Assembly: GCF_009663395.1 (NCBI RefSeq) | Contig: NZ_QKNW01000001.1 | Coordinates: 1,612,001-1,676,000 of the forward strand | DNA: 64,000 nucleotides | DNA from: Halosegnis longus | Lineage (GTDB): Archaea > Halobacteriota > Halobacteria > Halobacteriales > Haloarculaceae | Direction: 5' to 3' | Part shown: positions 4,726-29,462 of the stretch, one piece after another | How positions within the stretch are numbered: the first letter of the stretch is position 1 | Layout of the letters: every line of letters begins with the position of its first letter | Program-made: the position numbers and the translations under genes | Notes under the pieces: generated by a model | What the model was told of the DNA's origin: nothing | The model's database searches: none | What the model saw: only the letters and a program-made list of their open reading frames with translations

Positions 4726-4849
4726 GGTGATTGGCAGAGCAGCGTATTATCGACCCGCAGTGATTGGCGGGTCGGACTCCTACCGACCTGCAGTGGTTGG
4801 CAGGTCGGATTTCTACCGACTTGCAGTGGTTGGCAGGTCGGACTCCTAC
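4726..4849 (+). repeat. Tandem hairpin array, 33-bp period, three full units and one degenerate unit
   Basis: Unit 1 pairs CGACCCGC (4751-4758) with GCGGGTCG (4767-4774). Unit 2 pairs CCGACCTGC (4783-4791) with GCAGGTCGG (4800-4808). Unit 3 pairs CCGACTTGC (4816-4824) with GCAGGTCGG (4833-4841). The loops are AGTGATTG, AGTGGTTG and AGTGGTTG. Units 1 and 2 differ by a compensated base pair; unit 3 has one G-T pair. Spacers are ACTCCTA, ATTTCTA and ACTCCTA. A decayed copy (GGTGATTG at 4726-4733) lies exactly one period upstream of unit 1. The array fills the space between two divergent genes and ends ~10 bases before a TATA box. Confidence 0.9.
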
Positions 4850-19082: not shown

Positions 19083-20520
19083 CCTCGAAGGGCAGGCCGC
19101 CCGCGGCGGGCTGTGGGCGGCCGGCGAGACCGCGCTCGTCCGCGGGCTCGAACTCCTCCGATACGTCGCCATCGCCCGCCTGCTCGTTCCGAGCCAAATC
19201 GGGCTGTTCACGTTCGGTATCATCACCCTCTCGGTCGTCAAGCAGTTCTCGAATCTGGGTATCGACGCCGCCATCATCGCACAGGACGGCGATATCGACC
19301 GCCAACTCGATGCCGCCTTCAGCCTCCAAATCGTTCGCTCGCTCGTCCTTGCCGGCCTCCTCTACGTCGCCGCGCCGATTCCGGCCGCCGTCTTCGGCGA
19401 TGAGTCCGTCGTCCGGCTCGTCCGGCTCATTGCTATCATCCCGCTCATCGATACGGTGGAGAACCCCGCGACCGTCGTCTTCGAGAAGGAGCTGAACTTC
19501 CGGCGGCGCTCGCTGTTCCGGATTTCGGGCGTGCTCGCGAACGCGGCCGTCTCGATTGGACTTGCCTACCGATTCCGGTCCGTCGACGCACTCGTGGCCG
19601 GAGTCATCGCCGGCGCGGCGGTTCATACCGTCGTCTCGCATCTCCTCACCGACCACAGCCCGTTTCCCTCGTTCGATATCGAACAGATGCGAACGCTGTT
19701 CGACTACGGCAAGTGGCTCACCGGCAGTTCCATCGTCTCGTGGATTTACCGGGAGGGAGACGACGCGCTCGTCGGGGCCGTCGTCGGGAGCGCCGGCCTC
19801 GCCTACTACCGGAGCGCGTTCCAGTTCGGGCAGGCCCCTCAGTCCGAACTCACGGGCGTCGTCAGCGAGGTGGCGTTCCCGACGTACGCGCAAGTGAAGG
19901 ACGACGCCCACGCCCTGCTGGTCGGCTACCGGCGGACGCTCTCTGTCGCCGTGACAGCCGTCTTCCCTGCCGCCGCCGGCACCGCACTCGTCGCGCCCGC
20001 CTTCGTCCCGGTCGTGCTCGGACCGGGGTGGGAGCCGACGATTCGCCCGCTCCGGATTATCGCGCTTGCAGCCGTCGGTCACGCCGTCGCGGCCACCGCT
20101 GGCTCGCTCTGGCAGGCGCTCGACCGCCCGGACCTCTCGACGAAGACACAGACGCTCTCGATGGTCGTCCTCGCCGTGACCGCCGTACCCGCCACCCTCG
20201 AATACGGCGTTGTCGGCACCGCGACCGCCGTTACCGTCACCGCGTTCGTCGTCGCGCCGGTCCGCATCCTGCTCGTCGCGCGGCTGCTCGATACCTCGAT
20301 TGTTTCGCTCCTGACGCCGGTCGCCGGACCGGCACTCGCGACGCTGTCGATGGCTGCCGCTGTCGCGCCGACGGTCACAGCCCTCCCGACGACGTTGCTC
20401 GGACTGCTCGGGAGTATCGGGGTCGGCGTCGTCGCCTACGGCGTGGCCATCCTGGTGCTCGACGTGACCCGGCTCGATACCCTCGCGCCAGTTCGGGAAC
20501 TGCTCGACGCGCTCACCTGA
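19075..20520 (+). CDS. Polysaccharide/lipid-linked oligosaccharide flippase (Wzx/MVF type)
   Basis: A 481-residue polytopic protein of the MOP superfamily. It starts with the typical amphipathic GQAARGGLWAAGETALVRGL and has about 12 hydrophobic segments. Motifs include LGIDAAIIAQ, NPATVVFEKELNFRRR (characteristic of this family, reversed charge loop) and SGLAYY-like VGSAGLAYYRSAFQF. It would turn lipid-linked glycan to the outer face. The start overlaps the preceding stop by eight bases. It converges with the GT4 gene, again overlapping by eight bases. Confidence 0.9.
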   Translation: MPDLEGQAARGGLWAAGETALVRGLELLRYVAIARLLVPSQIGLFTFGIITLSVVKQFSNLGIDAAIIAQDGDIDRQLDAAFSLQIVRSLVLAGLLYVAAPIPAAVFGDESVVRLVRLIAIIPLIDTVENPATVVFEKELNFRRRSLFRISGVLANAAVSIGLAYRFRSVDALVAGVIAGAAVHTVVSHLLTDHSPFPSFDIEQMRTLFDYGKWLTGSSIVSWIYREGDDALVGAVVGSAGLAYYRSAFQFGQAPQSELTGVVSEVAFPTYAQVKDDAHALLVGYRRTLSVAVTAVFPAAAGTALVAPAFVPVVLGPGWEPTIRPLRIIALAAVGHAVAATAGSLWQALDRPDLSTKTQTLSMVVLAVTAVPATLEYGVVGTATAVTVTAFVVAPVRILLVARLLDTSIVSLLTPVAGPALATLSMAAAVAPTVTALPTTLLGLLGSIGVGVVAYGVAILVLDVTRLDTLAPVRELLDALT

Positions 20521-21676
20521 GCAGCCCCTGTCCCGTGAGCCGTCGCTCCTTCTCGCGACAGAAGTCGGTCCACGTCGGGACGGCGTCCCGGTTCGGCGTC
20601 TCGTCGCTGTCGAGTCGCGCAGCGACGGCGTCGGCCCACGATTCGGGGTCGGGGTCGGCGACCGAGACGGCCGGCTCCGCAGCGAGTAGTTCCTTCGCGT
20701 AGGTGTCCATCGAGAGCACCACGGGCGTCCCGACGCCGTACGCCTCCAGCGGCGACAGCCCGTAGGACATCCACGCCGAGCAGCCGAACACGTCCGCGCC
20801 GGCGTAGTAACCCGGCAGGTCGGCGTCGTCGACGTAGCCGGCGAACGTCACCCGACCCTCGACGCCGGCGTCGGCGACCGCCTCGCGCAGTCGTCCCTCG
20901 TCCGGGCCGGTGCCACAGACGGTGAGTCCCACGTCGTAGCCACGCTCCGCGAGCCGAGCGACGGCGCGAATCTGGGTCTCGATGCGCTTGCGCGGGTCGA
21001 GTCTGCTCACCGACAGCAGGTCGTACTCGTGCTCGGAGAGCGCCCGGGGGTCGTGGCTGTCCAGCCACGCCGCGTCGATACCCGGCCGGACGACGGTGCT
21101 GTCGGCGTCGTACAGCCCGTCGAGTTCGCGGGCGACACGCTGTGAACCGGTGAAGACGGCCGCCGCCTTCCGGAGCCCGCGCCCGCGAACGCGCTCGCCA
21201 ATCGTCGCCCACAGTCGTTGTCGCGCAGAGAGGTTCGGCGGGTCGTGGAACGTCCGGTGGCCCGGCACCTCCGAAACGAGTCGCTCGTAGGCCGGGGTGT
21301 TGACGTGCGGGACGAGCCGCGGGTCGTCGGGAAACCACAGCACGGAGCCGTGGACGTGGGGCGCATACGGCGTCCCGTCGAGACCACAACAGACGCTCAC
21401 TTCCTCGGTGGCGTAGTGGGAGAGAACGAGGTCGGGGTCGCGCTCGGAAAGCAGGGGACGAAGCCGGCGAACCCCGCGCCACCCCTTGTGCGGGCGACCG
21501 TATTCGACCGCCTCCACGCTGTCTGGCAGCGTCTCTGCCACGTAGTCGGCGTCGTACTCCGGAGCGAACACCGTCACCTCGTGGTCGTCGGCGAAGTGGC
21601 TCGCCTCCTCGATGCAGAGCCGTTCCGCGCCGCCGGGGGGTGCGAGCGTGAGACCGAAGACGACGCAGATGTGCAT
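20513..21676 (-). CDS. Family 4 (GT-B) glycosyltransferase
   Basis: A 387-residue GT-B enzyme. The N-terminal glycine loop is FGLTLAPPGGAERL. The donor half holds LLSVSRLDPRKRIETQIRA, LTVCGTGPDEGRL and the E-x7-E-type sequence SAWMSYGLSPLEAYGVGTPV. These fit a retaining GT4 enzyme at the cytoplasmic membrane face. Its start at 21676 lies about 45 bases from the hairpin array and about 24 bases from a TATA-like box. Confidence 0.9.
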   Translation of the reverse strand: MHICVVFGLTLAPPGGAERLCIEEASHFADDHEVTVFAPEYDADYVAETLPDSVEAVEYGRPHKGWRGVRRLRPLLSERDPDLVLSHYATEEVSVCCGLDGTPYAPHVHGSVLWFPDDPRLVPHVNTPAYERLVSEVPGHRTFHDPPNLSARQRLWATIGERVRGRGLRKAAAVFTGSQRVARELDGLYDADSTVVRPGIDAAWLDSHDPRALSEHEYDLLSVSRLDPRKRIETQIRAVARLAERGYDVGLTVCGTGPDEGRLREAVADAGVEGRVTFAGYVDDADLPGYYAGADVFGCSAWMSYGLSPLEAYGVGTPVVLSMDTYAKELLAAEPAVSVADPDPESWADAVAARLDSDETPNRDAVPTWTDFCREKERRLTGQGLLR

Positions 21677-21695
21677 ACCCGGCGAACGCCGCGAC

Positions 21696-21702
21696 GGAAA
21701 AA
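21696..21702 (-). promoter_or_regulatory. Possible TATA box for the GT4 gene at 21676
   Basis: The minus strand reads TTTTTCC, centred about 24-26 bases before the ATG at 21676, consistent with a leaderless mRNA. The hairpin array begins 18 bases further upstream. Confidence 0.35.
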
Positions 21703-21720
21703 GTCAGTTGTGCTCGGTGT

Positions 21721-21811
21721 CGTTCGGCTACGGCAGTCGAACGGACAGGAGTGCTGTCCGGTTACGGCAACCGGACAGACAGGAGTGACGTTCGTCTACG
21801 GCAGTCGAACG
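21721..21811 (-). repeat. Tandem hairpin array, 34-bp period, three units
   Basis: On the plus strand, unit 1 spans 21721-21743 (arms CGTTCGGCT and AGTCGAACG). Unit 2 spans 21755-21777 (arms TGTCCGGTT and AACCGGACA, perfect 9-bp stem). Unit 3 spans 21789-21811 (arms CGTTCGTCT and AGTCGAACG). The loop is ACGGC in all three. Units 1 and 2 differ at three compensated base pairs. The two spacers are GACAGGAGTGC and GACAGGAGTGA. Unit 3 overlaps the last codons and stop of the GT2 gene. Read on the minus strand, the sense of the downstream GT4 gene, the spacers contain ACTCCT. Confidence 0.92.
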
Positions 21812-22674
21812 GACAGATGCTTACTCGCGCGATAGGCTCGCCACCCGCCGAGCGCCGACGCGAGCGGGACGGCCCGCGCGGGCGTCGGCCGGGTTCGAAA
21901 GGCGCGCCAGAACTCACTGAGTGCGGCGCGACGCTCCCCCGACCGGAGCAGTTGTTCTCCGGCCTTGCGTGCCGTGTCCGCGACCGCCCGTTTGCGCGCC
22001 GCCGGATACTCCTCGTAGAGGGCAGCGTACTCGTCGATGATGTCGCGCCGGCCCTCGATGAGTCCCATCGACTTCCCGCGGGAGTCGGGTTCGACGGCGC
22101 GGGTGACGAGCAGGTCGTCGACGGCATTGAACGGGGTCCGCCGGGCGAGTTCGATGATGAGTCCGAGGTCGTCACCGCCGGGCCGGTCGGCGAGCGGGAG
22201 GAGCGACCGGAGCAGTTCTCCCTCCACCAGCAGCGTGGAGGTGAGACACGGCGAGGCGTCAAAGGCGAGTGCCGCGTCGAGCATCTCGCCCGTCGCTCGC
22301 GGGTAGCGCTCGTCGCCGTTCTCGAACCGGAAGCCGCAGAAGCCGACGCGGGCGTCGCTCTCGCGCAGCGACTCCATTCCGCGTTCGATACGCTCGGGGT
22401 GGAGTTGGTCGTCGTCGTCGAGCAGGTGGACGTACTCCCCCTCAGCGCGTTCGATACCGGCGGTGCGGGCGGGGTTCCCCCCGCGATTCTCGTCGAGCGC
22501 GAGATACGTCACCTCGGGGTGGTCCGCGACCGGGGCGGCGTGTCCTTCGCCGGAGTCGTCGACGACGACACACTCCACGTCGGGATGGGTCTGTGCCCGG
22601 ACGCTCTCGATGGCGTCGGCGAGTCGCCCGTTGCGGTAGTGTGTGGGGATGACGACGGAGACGAGCGGGGCCAT
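21796..22674 (-). CDS. Family 2 glycosyltransferase
   Basis: A 292-residue GT-A enzyme: VSVVIPTHYRNGRLADAI, then VVVDDSGEGH in place of NDGSTD, ENRGGNPARTAGI and the metal motif LDDDDQL. The body is shorter than the other two GT2 genes of the locus but shares the C-terminal layout. The last codons (KHLSVRLP then stop) are encoded by the third unit of the hairpin array, so the repeat has been captured as the gene end. ATG 22674 starts MAPLVSVVIP directly at the fold. Confidence 0.9.
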   Translation of the reverse strand: MAPLVSVVIPTHYRNGRLADAIESVRAQTHPDVECVVVDDSGEGHAAPVADHPEVTYLALDENRGGNPARTAGIERAEGEYVHLLDDDDQLHPERIERGMESLRESDARVGFCGFRFENGDERYPRATGEMLDAALAFDASPCLTSTLLVEGELLRSLLPLADRPGGDDLGLIIELARRTPFNAVDDLLVTRAVEPDSRGKSMGLIEGRRDIIDEYAALYEEYPAARKRAVADTARKAGEQLLRSGERRAALSEFWRAFRTRPTPARAVPLASALGGWRAYRASKHLSVRLP

Positions 22675-25687: not shown

Positions 25688-26778
25688 CCGTCCACCTCCA
25701 GACTCTCGACCAGCGCGTCGACGATACGCTCGCCCGCCCGTCCGTCGCCGTAGAGGTCCGGATGGCCGGTCATCGCGGCCCGCGCGTCGGCGTCGGTCGC
25801 CAGCGTCCGGAGCCGCGTTGCGAGATTCGACGGCTCGACCAGTTCGTTCACGCCGGCCTCGACCGTCTCCGGGCGCTCGGTGTTCGGCCGCACCGTGAGA
25901 CACGGCGTTTCGAGGACGGACGCCTCCTCCTGTACCCCGCCGGAGTCGGTGACGACGACATGTGCCCCGTCGAGTAAGGCGAGGAAGTCGAGATACCCCT
26001 GCGGCTCCGCGAGCCGGAGCGAGCCGTCCGGCTCGACTCCGAGCGCCTCGATTGCGGTCTCCGTGCGCGGGTGGGCGGGGAGGACGACCGGTATCGGCGC
26101 GCCGTCGAGTGCGCCGAGAATCGCCCGCAGCCGGTCGGGAGCCTCGGTGTTGTGCGGCCGATGTATCGTCGCGAGCGCGTACCCGTCCGACTCGACGCCG
26201 AACCGCGAGCGCGCGTCGGACTGCTCGCGCGCGACGGGCGCGTGGTCGAGACACGCGTCCACGACCGTGTTTCCGGTCTGCGTGACGCCCACCTCGATGC
26301 CCTCGCCGGCGAGGTTGGCAACGGCGCTCTCCGTGGGGGCAAACAGCAGCTCCGAGAGGTGGTCGGCGACGACGCGGTTCACCTCTTCGGGCATGGTTCG
26401 GTCGTAGCTTCGCAGGCCGGCCTCAACGTGGCCGACGAGCGTGTCGCGTTTCGCCCCGGCCAGCGTCGCCGCGAGGACGGCGTTCGTGTCTCCGAGCGTG
26501 AGCACGGCTGCCGGTTCCCGTTGGGCGATATCGGCGTCGATACCGACGAGCCCGTCGGCGGTCTGTTGTGCGCCGCCGGTGCTGCCAACGTCGAGATTCA
26601 CCGCCGGTTCGGGCAGCCCGAGCACGTCGAAGAACTCGCCGCTGAGCTCCGCGTCGTAGTGTTGGCCGGTGTGAAGCAGCCGCGGCTCCGTCGCCGGGTG
26701 AGCATCGAGCGCGCGAATCACCGGAGCCATCTTCACGAGTTCGGGTCGCGTCCCGACGACGGCGAGCACCGTCACCAC
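25684..26778 (-). CDS. wecB: UDP-N-acetylglucosamine 2-epimerase (non-hydrolysing)
   Basis: A 364-residue enzyme interconverting UDP-GlcNAc and UDP-ManNAc. Family marks are VVGTRPELVKMAPVI, LHTGQHYD, GDTNAVLAATLAG, VGHVEAGLRSYDR-x-MPEE, HRPHNTEA and TDSGGVQEEA with the following NTERPET. All are present and the length is normal. The start is GTG 26778 (MVTVLAVVGTRPE), overlapping the upstream dehydrogenase stop by seven bases. It supplies UDP-ManNAc, the substrate of a WecC-type dehydrogenase such as the one at 16810. Confidence 0.93.
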   Translation of the reverse strand: MVTVLAVVGTRPELVKMAPVIRALDAHPATEPRLLHTGQHYDAELSGEFFDVLGLPEPAVNLDVGSTGGAQQTADGLVGIDADIAQREPAAVLTLGDTNAVLAATLAGAKRDTLVGHVEAGLRSYDRTMPEEVNRVVADHLSELLFAPTESAVANLAGEGIEVGVTQTGNTVVDACLDHAPVAREQSDARSRFGVESDGYALATIHRPHNTEAPDRLRAILGALDGAPIPVVLPAHPRTETAIEALGVEPDGSLRLAEPQGYLDFLALLDGAHVVVTDSGGVQEEASVLETPCLTVRPNTERPETVEAGVNELVEPSNLATRLRTLATDADARAAMTGHPDLYGDGRAGERIVDALVESLEVDG

Positions 26779-29462
26779 GTCAACCCCTCGTAGGTCATCC
26801 CCTTGCGGGCCTCGATGATGCGCCGACCGTCAACGACGACCTGTCGCGCCATCGCGTCGAACTCGCCATCGAGGGCACCGAACGCGGGCCAGTCGGTGAC
26901 GACGAGCGCGCCGACGGCTCCGTCGAGGGCACCGCTCGCGCTGTCGGTGTACTCAACGTCCGGGTACGCACGCGCCATCGTCTCGCTCGCGTCCGAGGGG
27001 TCGTACGCCGCCACCTCGGCTCCTCGTTCCTGTAGCCCGGCGATGACCGGCTTCGCGCGCGACCCGCGGATGTCGTCGGTGTCGGGCTTGAACGCGAGTC
27101 CGAGCACGGCGACGCGTTCGCCGGCCACGTCGACGTGCCGGTCGAGGAGTTCGAGCAGGCGGCGCGGCTGCGTCTCGTTCACCCCGACGACCGCGTCGAG
27201 CAGTTCGGGTTCGTAGTCGCGGTCGCGGGCGGCGGCCCGGAGCGCGTCGGTGTCCTTGGGGAAGCAGTTGTGTACGACTAACCCGTCCGTCGTCACGAAT
27301 GTACTGTTATCTGCCACCTCAATTGAATACACCTCTGTCTCCGTCTGCTGTGTCGAGATTTCATTGACATTGACACTGAGCGTCCCGCCATCCGTGTATC
27401 CAATTGGTGCAATCTCCCGCTCGTACTGTTCGAGTCGATTCTCAATCTTCGCTTGCTCTTCTGGCTGGAACAACTCCGTAAGCGCAGCTATCTGTGCTTT
27501 CGAGCTGACGCGAAGGAAATGAGCGGGCTGGGTAGATTTCTCGGATTCGGACTGCTTGTAGCTTGGCACGATACCGAGACTGTGGAGGAGAAACTGCATC
27601 CCCTGGATGAGTTCCTCACTGACCGACCCGTAATCATAGACAACTGCATTCGAGTGGTTCGTATAGTTGATGTGGCCGTCTCCACGGAATAAGCCAGCCA
27701 GCAGTGCTCGCTTGTGTGTGGCCGTCTCGTCGTGTGCGATATCTGGTACAGCTGCCGAATATGACCCTGTTCCACAGCCAAGAGATTCGATGAAAGCTGC
27801 GAACACACGACTCGACACCTCAATTTGTGTCGAAGTCTCCTGTGTGTCTGTCCGGTAACGAATACCGATATCCTCAAAATACGTCTCTACGTCAGCTACA
27901 AGCTCTGGCTCATCGCTCGGATGGAAACTGATGAATAACCGACGGCGCGGGGTAGAGCCGTGCCCGGAACTGTCGTCGTGGATATGTCCTTCGCTGAGAT
28001 AGTAGCCAATAAACCGCCAGAACGACTCGTCCGCATCGATAATTCCTGGGACGTAGGTCTGTCCGCCGCCACGGGTCGTGTAGAGACTGACTGCTGCCCG
28101 TGTAAGTGGAAGTGAAGACTCAAACTCAAGAAACACGTCAAGCGGAATGTAGTTGTTCCGGATGAACTCGTGGACGCGGTCGTAGCTATGATTGCGGTTG
28201 TACGCTTCCAATACGTCCCGAAGCTCATCTTTGACGGTCTCTAACTCGAAGTTTGGCTTGAGATACACTCGTTCGTTGTCGAACCGCGCCGCGTCTGCGA
28301 CGAACTCGATGAGGTCAAACTGACCGACAGGGTTTGCTGGCATCGAATCGAGCGTCGGCAGTCGGTCTCCTTCCGTGAGGTTCTGTGCTTCTACCACCGC
28401 TGTCCCTCCATCGCTCGCGACCAGCATCGGGTGGTCGTGCGTGACGGTTACCGACTTACTCATGCTCGTCTCGATAGTGTGGAGCGGTCCTGTGTACTGT
28501 CGCTTCGTCGCGCCGGTGACTGGCTTGAACTCGAATCCGTCGCCATCGTGGCTGAGTACTGTGACATCTCGAACTGTCTCACCGTCGACGAACCGCTCGT
28601 GGAACTGCTCGAACGTAATAAGCTCAGTTTTGTCAGCCGTACGAATCAGAAGCCGCTGGTCCCCGGTGAGACAGCTACCCCCCCATCCCACCCCCGACCG
28701 GAGGAACTGCGCGCCGATGCGGTCGTCCAGTCCCATCGCCTCGGCCACCTCGTAGGAGTCGACGCCGTACTCCTTGCAGATGTTGCCGAGTTCGTTGATG
28801 AGCGAGACTTTCGCGGCGAGGAAGACGTTGTTGGCGTACTTCATCATCGCGGCCTCTCGGCGACCCGTCTCCACGACCGGCGGCTCGTCGGGAAGAGGTG
28901 CATACACCGCCCGGAGGGCGTCGAGCGCGCGGTCGTCGTCGGTGCCGAGTACGACCTTGTCGGGGTGCATGAAGTCGTCCACGGCGCTGCCCTGTGCCTG
29001 AAACTCGGGGTTGACCGCCGTCGCGAAGGTCTCGCCTTCCGGACCCGCGGCCTGCTCGATGCGCGGGACGACCTCCTCTTCGACCATCCCAGGGATGACG
29101 GTGGATTTGACGGCGACGGTGTGGAACGTCTCCTTCTGTGCGAGTGCCTCTCCGAGCGATTCGGCGGCGGCGAGGACGACCGACGGGTCGATGCTGCCGT
29201 CCTCGCGAGCGGGCGTCTGGACGGTGATGAACGAGCAGTCGGTGTCGCGGACGGCGGCGTAGTCGGTGGTCGCGGAGATTCGGTCGGCGTTCTCCGCGTA
29301 CAGGGAATCGAGTCCGGGTTCGGCCATCGGTGGCTCGCCGGCCTCGATGCTCGCGACGACCGACTCGTCGATGTCGATTGCCGTCACTTCGTGGCCGAGC
29401 GCGGCCAGACAGCCGGTGAGGGTCGCGCCGACGTAGCCGGAGCCGATGACGCTGACGTGCAT
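26772..29462 (-). CDS. UDP-glucose 6-dehydrogenase interrupted by an intein
   Basis: The 896-residue precursor splices to a 427-residue dehydrogenase. The N-extein (1-263) has MHVSVIGSGYVGATLTGCLA and VKSTVIPGMVEEEV, and ends GVGWGGS. The C-extein begins at Cys733, giving the joined active site GWGGS-CFPKD typical of UDP-glucose dehydrogenases (AglM-like in Haloferax), and continues with VLGLAFKPDTDDIRGSRA. Residues 264-732 are the intein. Without splicing the enzyme could not work, because the catalytic Cys is the first C-extein residue. The product UDP-glucuronate feeds surface glycans. It leads the operon ugd-wecB-GT4. Confidence 0.93.
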   Translation of the reverse strand: MHVSVIGSGYVGATLTGCLAALGHEVTAIDIDESVVASIEAGEPPMAEPGLDSLYAENADRISATTDYAAVRDTDCSFITVQTPAREDGSIDPSVVLAAAESLGEALAQKETFHTVAVKSTVIPGMVEEEVVPRIEQAAGPEGETFATAVNPEFQAQGSAVDDFMHPDKVVLGTDDDRALDALRAVYAPLPDEPPVVETGRREAAMMKYANNVFLAAKVSLINELGNICKEYGVDSYEVAEAMGLDDRIGAQFLRSGVGWGGSCLTGDQRLLIRTADKTELITFEQFHERFVDGETVRDVTVLSHDGDGFEFKPVTGATKRQYTGPLHTIETSMSKSVTVTHDHPMLVASDGGTAVVEAQNLTEGDRLPTLDSMPANPVGQFDLIEFVADAARFDNERVYLKPNFELETVKDELRDVLEAYNRNHSYDRVHEFIRNNYIPLDVFLEFESSLPLTRAAVSLYTTRGGGQTYVPGIIDADESFWRFIGYYLSEGHIHDDSSGHGSTPRRRLFISFHPSDEPELVADVETYFEDIGIRYRTDTQETSTQIEVSSRVFAAFIESLGCGTGSYSAAVPDIAHDETATHKRALLAGLFRGDGHINYTNHSNAVVYDYGSVSEELIQGMQFLLHSLGIVPSYKQSESEKSTQPAHFLRVSSKAQIAALTELFQPEEQAKIENRLEQYEREIAPIGYTDGGTLSVNVNEISTQQTETEVYSIEVADNSTFVTTDGLVVHNCFPKDTDALRAAARDRDYEPELLDAVVGVNETQPRRLLELLDRHVDVAGERVAVLGLAFKPDTDDIRGSRAKPVIAGLQERGAEVAAYDPSDASETMARAYPDVEYTDSASGALDGAVGALVVTDWPAFGALDGEFDAMARQVVVDGRRIIEARKGMTYEGLTW
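27267..28673 (-). mobile_element. Intein with LAGLIDADG homing endonuclease, in UDP-glucose dehydrogenase
   Basis: 469 residues (264-732 of the precursor). Splicing block A starts with Cys264 (CLTGDQRLLI). Block B is VTVTHDHPML, with the T-x-x-H pattern at Thr341 and His344. Block F/G is VYSIEVADNSTFVTT to GLVVHN, with His731-Asn732 followed by Cys733. The two endonuclease motifs are FIGYYLSEGHI (acidic Glu491) and LLAGLFRGDGHIN (Asp595), so both catalytic acids are kept. The DNA is visibly more AT-rich and less biased in codon choice than the flanking exteins, indicating recent arrival. Confidence 0.95.

Follow-up and report, generated by a model that had tools for sequence, protein, structure and literature searches.

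Are the three tandem hairpins that lie between two glycosyltransferase genes of Halosegnis longus kept because they fold, or does their self-complementarity have another origin? A first-pass annotation, made from the letters of this DNA alone, had taken matched changes on the two arms as strong evidence that pairing is kept. We re-examined the locus within the 64,000-nucleotide stretch that was analysed (hereafter, the window; contig NZ_QKNW01000001.1, positions 1,612,001 to 1,676,000) and compared it with Halosegnis rubeus F17-44 (G002, contig NZ_QJOW01000001.1), which is placed in the same genus as our genome, and with the MAG QH_7_65_31 (G003, contig PXQU01000004.1). We consider it probable that the array consists of tandem copies of the 3' end of the adjoining GT2 gene. 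The copies are self-complementary and would be easily gained or lost, and which of them is in live use varies by species.

The outline given in the first-pass annotation holds: there are three 34-bp units, spaced 34 and 34 bases start to start at 21717-21818 (TRF score 109), and the loop ACGGC is identical in all three. The array occupies the minus-strand gap region between the end of a GT2-family glycosyltransferase gene and a GT4-type glycosyltransferase gene, and all of these features are read on the minus strand. The GT2 gene (21796-22674, PF00535) has its likely start at 22674, and an in-frame extension to 22878 is probably not used. Its differences from the QH_7_65_31 gene number 22, 25 and 100 by codon position over 293 codons, and on this basis the gene looks functional. 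The co-directional downstream gene (GT1, 20513-21676, PF00534/PF13439) has its ATG 43 bases past the last hairpin, and these 43 bases (21677-21719) are rich in T between about -26 and -22, a possible weak TATA element or terminator T-run.

The unit nearest GT1 (U1, 21717-21750) forms a hairpin of 10 pairs at 21720-21744, two of them G-U; U2 (21751-21784) forms a perfect hairpin of 10 Watson-Crick pairs at 21754-21778; and U3 (21785-21818), whose 3'-most gene codons we return to below, forms a hairpin at 21788-21812 with a T-T mismatch at pair 8 and its outer pair open. From U1 to U2, three stem pairs have changed on both sides with compensation and two on one side only. The fold check proposed with the first description bears out the structure on both strands: the folding energy of the array region beats 200 of 200 dinucleotide shuffles on each, with z-scores of -5.7 (minus) and -3.6 (plus), and U2 alone, folded as DNA, reaches -6.3. 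The minimum-energy fold of the region pairs U1 with U3, enclosing the U2 hairpin. A scan for tandem similar hairpins over the window and 20 stretches of 20 kb from the same genome (464 of 2768 kb) returned only this array and two arrays of a second family with a member at 4.7 kb, plus 30-bp-period matches in two stretches (L117 and L121). Since it folds beyond all shuffles and others are nearly absent from the 464 kb scanned, the array is a real and rare feature. DNA, pattern and covariance-model searches place it at a single locus in the 2.77-Mb genome; Rfam 15 has no match at gathering score in the window, and a search of plasmids and phages gave no match to the unit.

Read on the minus strand, every unit of the array spells the same protein ending, LSVRLP followed by a stop. 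In U3 this is the live tail of the GT2 protein, with the stop TAG at 21796-21798, and, as first noted, U3 holds the final codons of a coding sequence together with its stop. These are not confined to U3: U1 carries both in the same phase beyond the live stop, and U2 carries both in a copy that is not live here. The same LSVRLP-stop is found in the single H. rubeus unit and in one of the two QH_7_65_31 units (G003a), making five of six units, and the sixth (G003b) reads LTVRLQ-stop. U2 departs from U1 and U3 at 5 of 21 bases (TCC/TCT, GTT/GTC, CGA/CGG, CTG/TTG, TAG/TAA), always synonymously. In tests framed post hoc on six units from three genomes, where pairing ties some of the changes together, the simulated chance that five random changes (two-thirds transitions) would all be synonymous is 0.004; the four changed positions in the ten-base coding arm of the stem are exactly those that permit a synonymous change, which is arithmetically 1 of 210 choices; and the three differences in 21 bases between our U1 and G003a, both non-live, are all synonymous (simulated chance 0.048). 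Between G003b, which is live, and our U2, which is not, there are one synonymous and two non-synonymous changes.

This bears on the first-pass proposal that the array has invaded the gene or extended into it, for which the C-terminus of relatives free of the array was the suggested check. In eight GT2 homologues from other genera, the C-termini fall within some residues of the end of our protein in the alignment, and inspection of the flanking bases by eye found no tandem hairpins after their stops. These array-free tails are similar in length to ours, with nothing added, and do not bear out an invasion. Because of that similarity, and because every unit copies the gene tail, our GT2 tail is not an added piece, and an origin of the array from within the gene is more likely.

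Comparing unit number between relatives, another check suggested at the outset, shows that copy number differs between the three species by whole units: three in our genome, one in H. rubeus and two in QH_7_65_31, the last with hairpins 32 bases apart. When 59 relatives and 392 genomes from the order were searched at the DNA level, the array was confined to these three; in the remaining three genomes of the genus there was neither a convincing array match nor a GT2 relative reaching E 1e-50. Over 29 nucleotides (the 21 coding bases and 8 of the right arm), G003b is nearest to our U2, with 4 differences against 11-13 to the others, and G003a is nearest to our U1 and the H. rubeus unit, with 5 differences each. 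Judged by these distances, the live tail is of the U1/U3 type in our genome and H. rubeus, and of the U2 type in QH_7_65_31. The ancestor of the three would probably have had both unit types, with units lost or gained since.

A covariance model run against 146 genomes of the family found no further array, returning weak matches (E 0.002-0.02) at 11 loci in 10 genomes. Nine of these loci are single matches with no tandem array seen, although for one of them, L175, the inspected stretch missed the match itself; another, L171, spans a stop codon, which we take as a lone coincidence. The other two loci both belong to a single tandem repeat of 37-bp period in G027, a genome of a different genus; this repeat (L178, about 1440-1540) is also palindromic and is unrelated in sequence. 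As a separate matter, the H. rubeus locus (L037, 6429-9163, against 21785-22668 of the window) has most of GT2 replaced by divergent, apparently frameshifted sequence beside an extra 563-aa gene, and its 3' end is nearly identical to ours, the picture of a mosaic glycosyltransferase locus.

Is pairing itself kept? The claim was built on three double changes that separate U1 from U2, and these are genuine. However, both unit types are also present in QH_7_65_31, so the contrast between them is old and counts once. Compensated pair changes across orthologues, the sign of a selected hairpin, were not found: three pairs changed between our U1 and G003a and one between our U2 and G003b, and all four ended unpaired. 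G003a forms no stable hairpin (z +0.66, with 149 of 200 shuffles folding at least as well), yet its LSVRLP-stop is intact. Taking the six units together, 88.3% of cells are paired, and column shuffles reach the observed covariation score in 8 of 500 cases and the paired percentage in 10 of 500. Moreover, template switching during DNA synthesis can copy one arm onto the other in a single event (PMC8794818), and matching arms therefore need not mean selection. With more units compared, the co-variation on which the first reading depended is largely lacking for this array, unlike the 4.7-kb family.

That family (loop AGTGRTTG), a separate tandem-hairpin family, is represented in the window at 4750-4849 and also at L044 1503-1595, L045 1499-1559 and L078 1434-1525. 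It resembles the GT2-tail array in having units of 33-34 bp, three copies, a count that varies among the same three species and a comparable spacing to the following ATG, which lies 44-48 bases downstream. It differs in being intergenic, unrelated in sequence and present at several loci, with compensated stem changes and no recognised coding tail. Our genome has two loci (3 and 3 units), H. rubeus the same two (1 and 2 units), and QH_7_65_31 has the family at one of the two (3 units) and lacks it at the other, with an isolated single match at C16:73235. Over 12 units the loop core is nearly constant, and the stems show 15 doubly changed cells, a number as high in none of 500 shuffles and at 0-4 in slid controls. 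The kept-pairing claim thus fits the 4.7-kb family better than the GT2-tail array. The two had been described as sharing one design with different stems and loops; the stems do differ and the families are unrelated, but the stems at 4.7 kb are better kept and have no coding tail. Its stems are well kept and it lies in a similar position ahead of promoters, so that of the two families the one at 4.7 kb is the likelier to be a functional element.

For the GT2-tail array, we propose that the unit comprises about six C-terminal codons, the stop and a following arm able to pair with the coding arm. Slippage or unequal recombination, aided by the self-complementarity of the units, would add and remove copies, and each gain or loss would supply GT2 with another ready tail and stop, so that the protein would be neither truncated nor extended. 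Earlier service as the live tail may be what keeps the units coding-like. The matched arm changes would most likely stem from hairpin-templated DNA synthesis copying one arm to the other, with at most weak selection on the hairpin. As every copy bears the same ending and stop, gain or loss of repeats would be harmless to the protein. The locus would then illustrate how changes on paired arms, commonly taken to prove a selected structure, can be better accounted for by duplication of a coding tail and one old contrast.

The array has what is expected of a minisatellite or VNTR at a gene end, namely head-to-tail imperfect copies of 34 bp and, in a between-species comparison, whole-unit differences in copy number among three close relatives. 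Unlike such repeats, the present unit is self-complementary and spans the stop, every copy having the same tail and stop, so that the protein stays intact. Quasi-palindromes made by template switching (PMC8794818) likewise have arms with matched changes that one mutational event could make; ours are tandem and lie over a coding end, and the event is one we infer. No paper describing such arrays in haloarchaea was found by title or abstract. Several points weigh against the tail-copy explanation. Two non-synonymous changes separate the live G003 unit from our non-live U2, although one would expect better conservation in a tail that is in use. Selection on the hairpin would likewise produce the perfect 10-bp stem of U2 and the compensated changes. 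The near-constant distance from the last hairpin to the next ATG at three loci is unaccounted for, and the synonymous pattern, spotted afterwards, comes from six units in three genomes.

A rival reading is that the hairpins persist for their structure as RNA: lying at the 3' end of the GT2 transcript, ahead of GT1, they would act as a tandem terminator or would stabilise that end. The strong minus-strand folding (z -5.7) and a TTTTT run past the array in the direction of transcription agree with this, and one tested hairpin motif of Haloferax volcanii terminated 59% of transcripts (PMC7237163). We nevertheless think it unlikely: G003a does not fold, the pair changes between orthologous units are uncompensated, and H. 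rubeus has only one hairpin, which is imperfect. Nor are stop-centred hairpins enriched in the genome, where 5 of 303 stops have a stem score of at least 7 and the 18 other offsets each give 2-14 of 303, a test that used rough gene calls and stems without mismatches and in which our own GT2 stop scores only 3, so that the live unit is not flagged.

The spacing to the next gene raises a different possibility, that the arrays are cis-acting DNA elements (an operator, a supercoil-relief cruciform or an insulator) that sit immediately before the next gene's basal promoter. The last hairpin lies 43-48 bases before the next ATG in seven of eight array instances and 33 bases before it in the eighth, counted over three loci and both families, and in the 4.7-kb family this spacing would leave room for the TATA-like element of a leaderless promoter. 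However, the regularity rests on three loci and was noticed afterwards; short intergenic regions might produce it by coincidence, or it might signal a promoter-proximal role. Furthermore, GT1 is preceded by a T-rich element that is weak and varies between species, one 4.7-kb locus of QH_7_65_31 has the gene and no array, and the stems vary among units, unlike a fixed operator. We hold this to be somewhat less likely again than an RNA role.

Alternatively, the array could act as a bank of interchangeable tails, letting a GT2 of a surface-polysaccharide locus recombine at its 3' end with the stop always kept. If so, the H. rubeus GT2, mostly replaced with its tail end kept, would be such an exchange; we regard this as a long shot.

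Insertion of a mobile palindrome of REP or MITE type at the end of the gene is very improbable: palindromic units of about 25 bp do occur in a small group, and the linker AGGAGT resembles the GTAG/GGAG tags of REPs, but the single locus per genome, the lack of other arrays in the 146 family genomes (weak matches only) and the 392 order genomes, and the fact that the unit is part of the gene mostly refute it. Our genome also has no Y1 (RAYT) transposase (PF01797); matches to this domain occur in H. rubeus, in G005 and, with internal stops, in QH_7_65_31. REP/BIME elements with RAYT transposases (PMC2817692, PMC3733652) are likewise short palindromes, sometimes in tandem, whereas the present array has one locus, a low copy number, a coding overlap and no RAYT.

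Elsewhere in the window, a UDP-glucose/GDP-mannose dehydrogenase gene (26772-29462) contains an intein with a LAGLIDADG domain; the insert, at about 27267-28672, is missing from the aligned region in both H. rubeus and QH_7_65_31.
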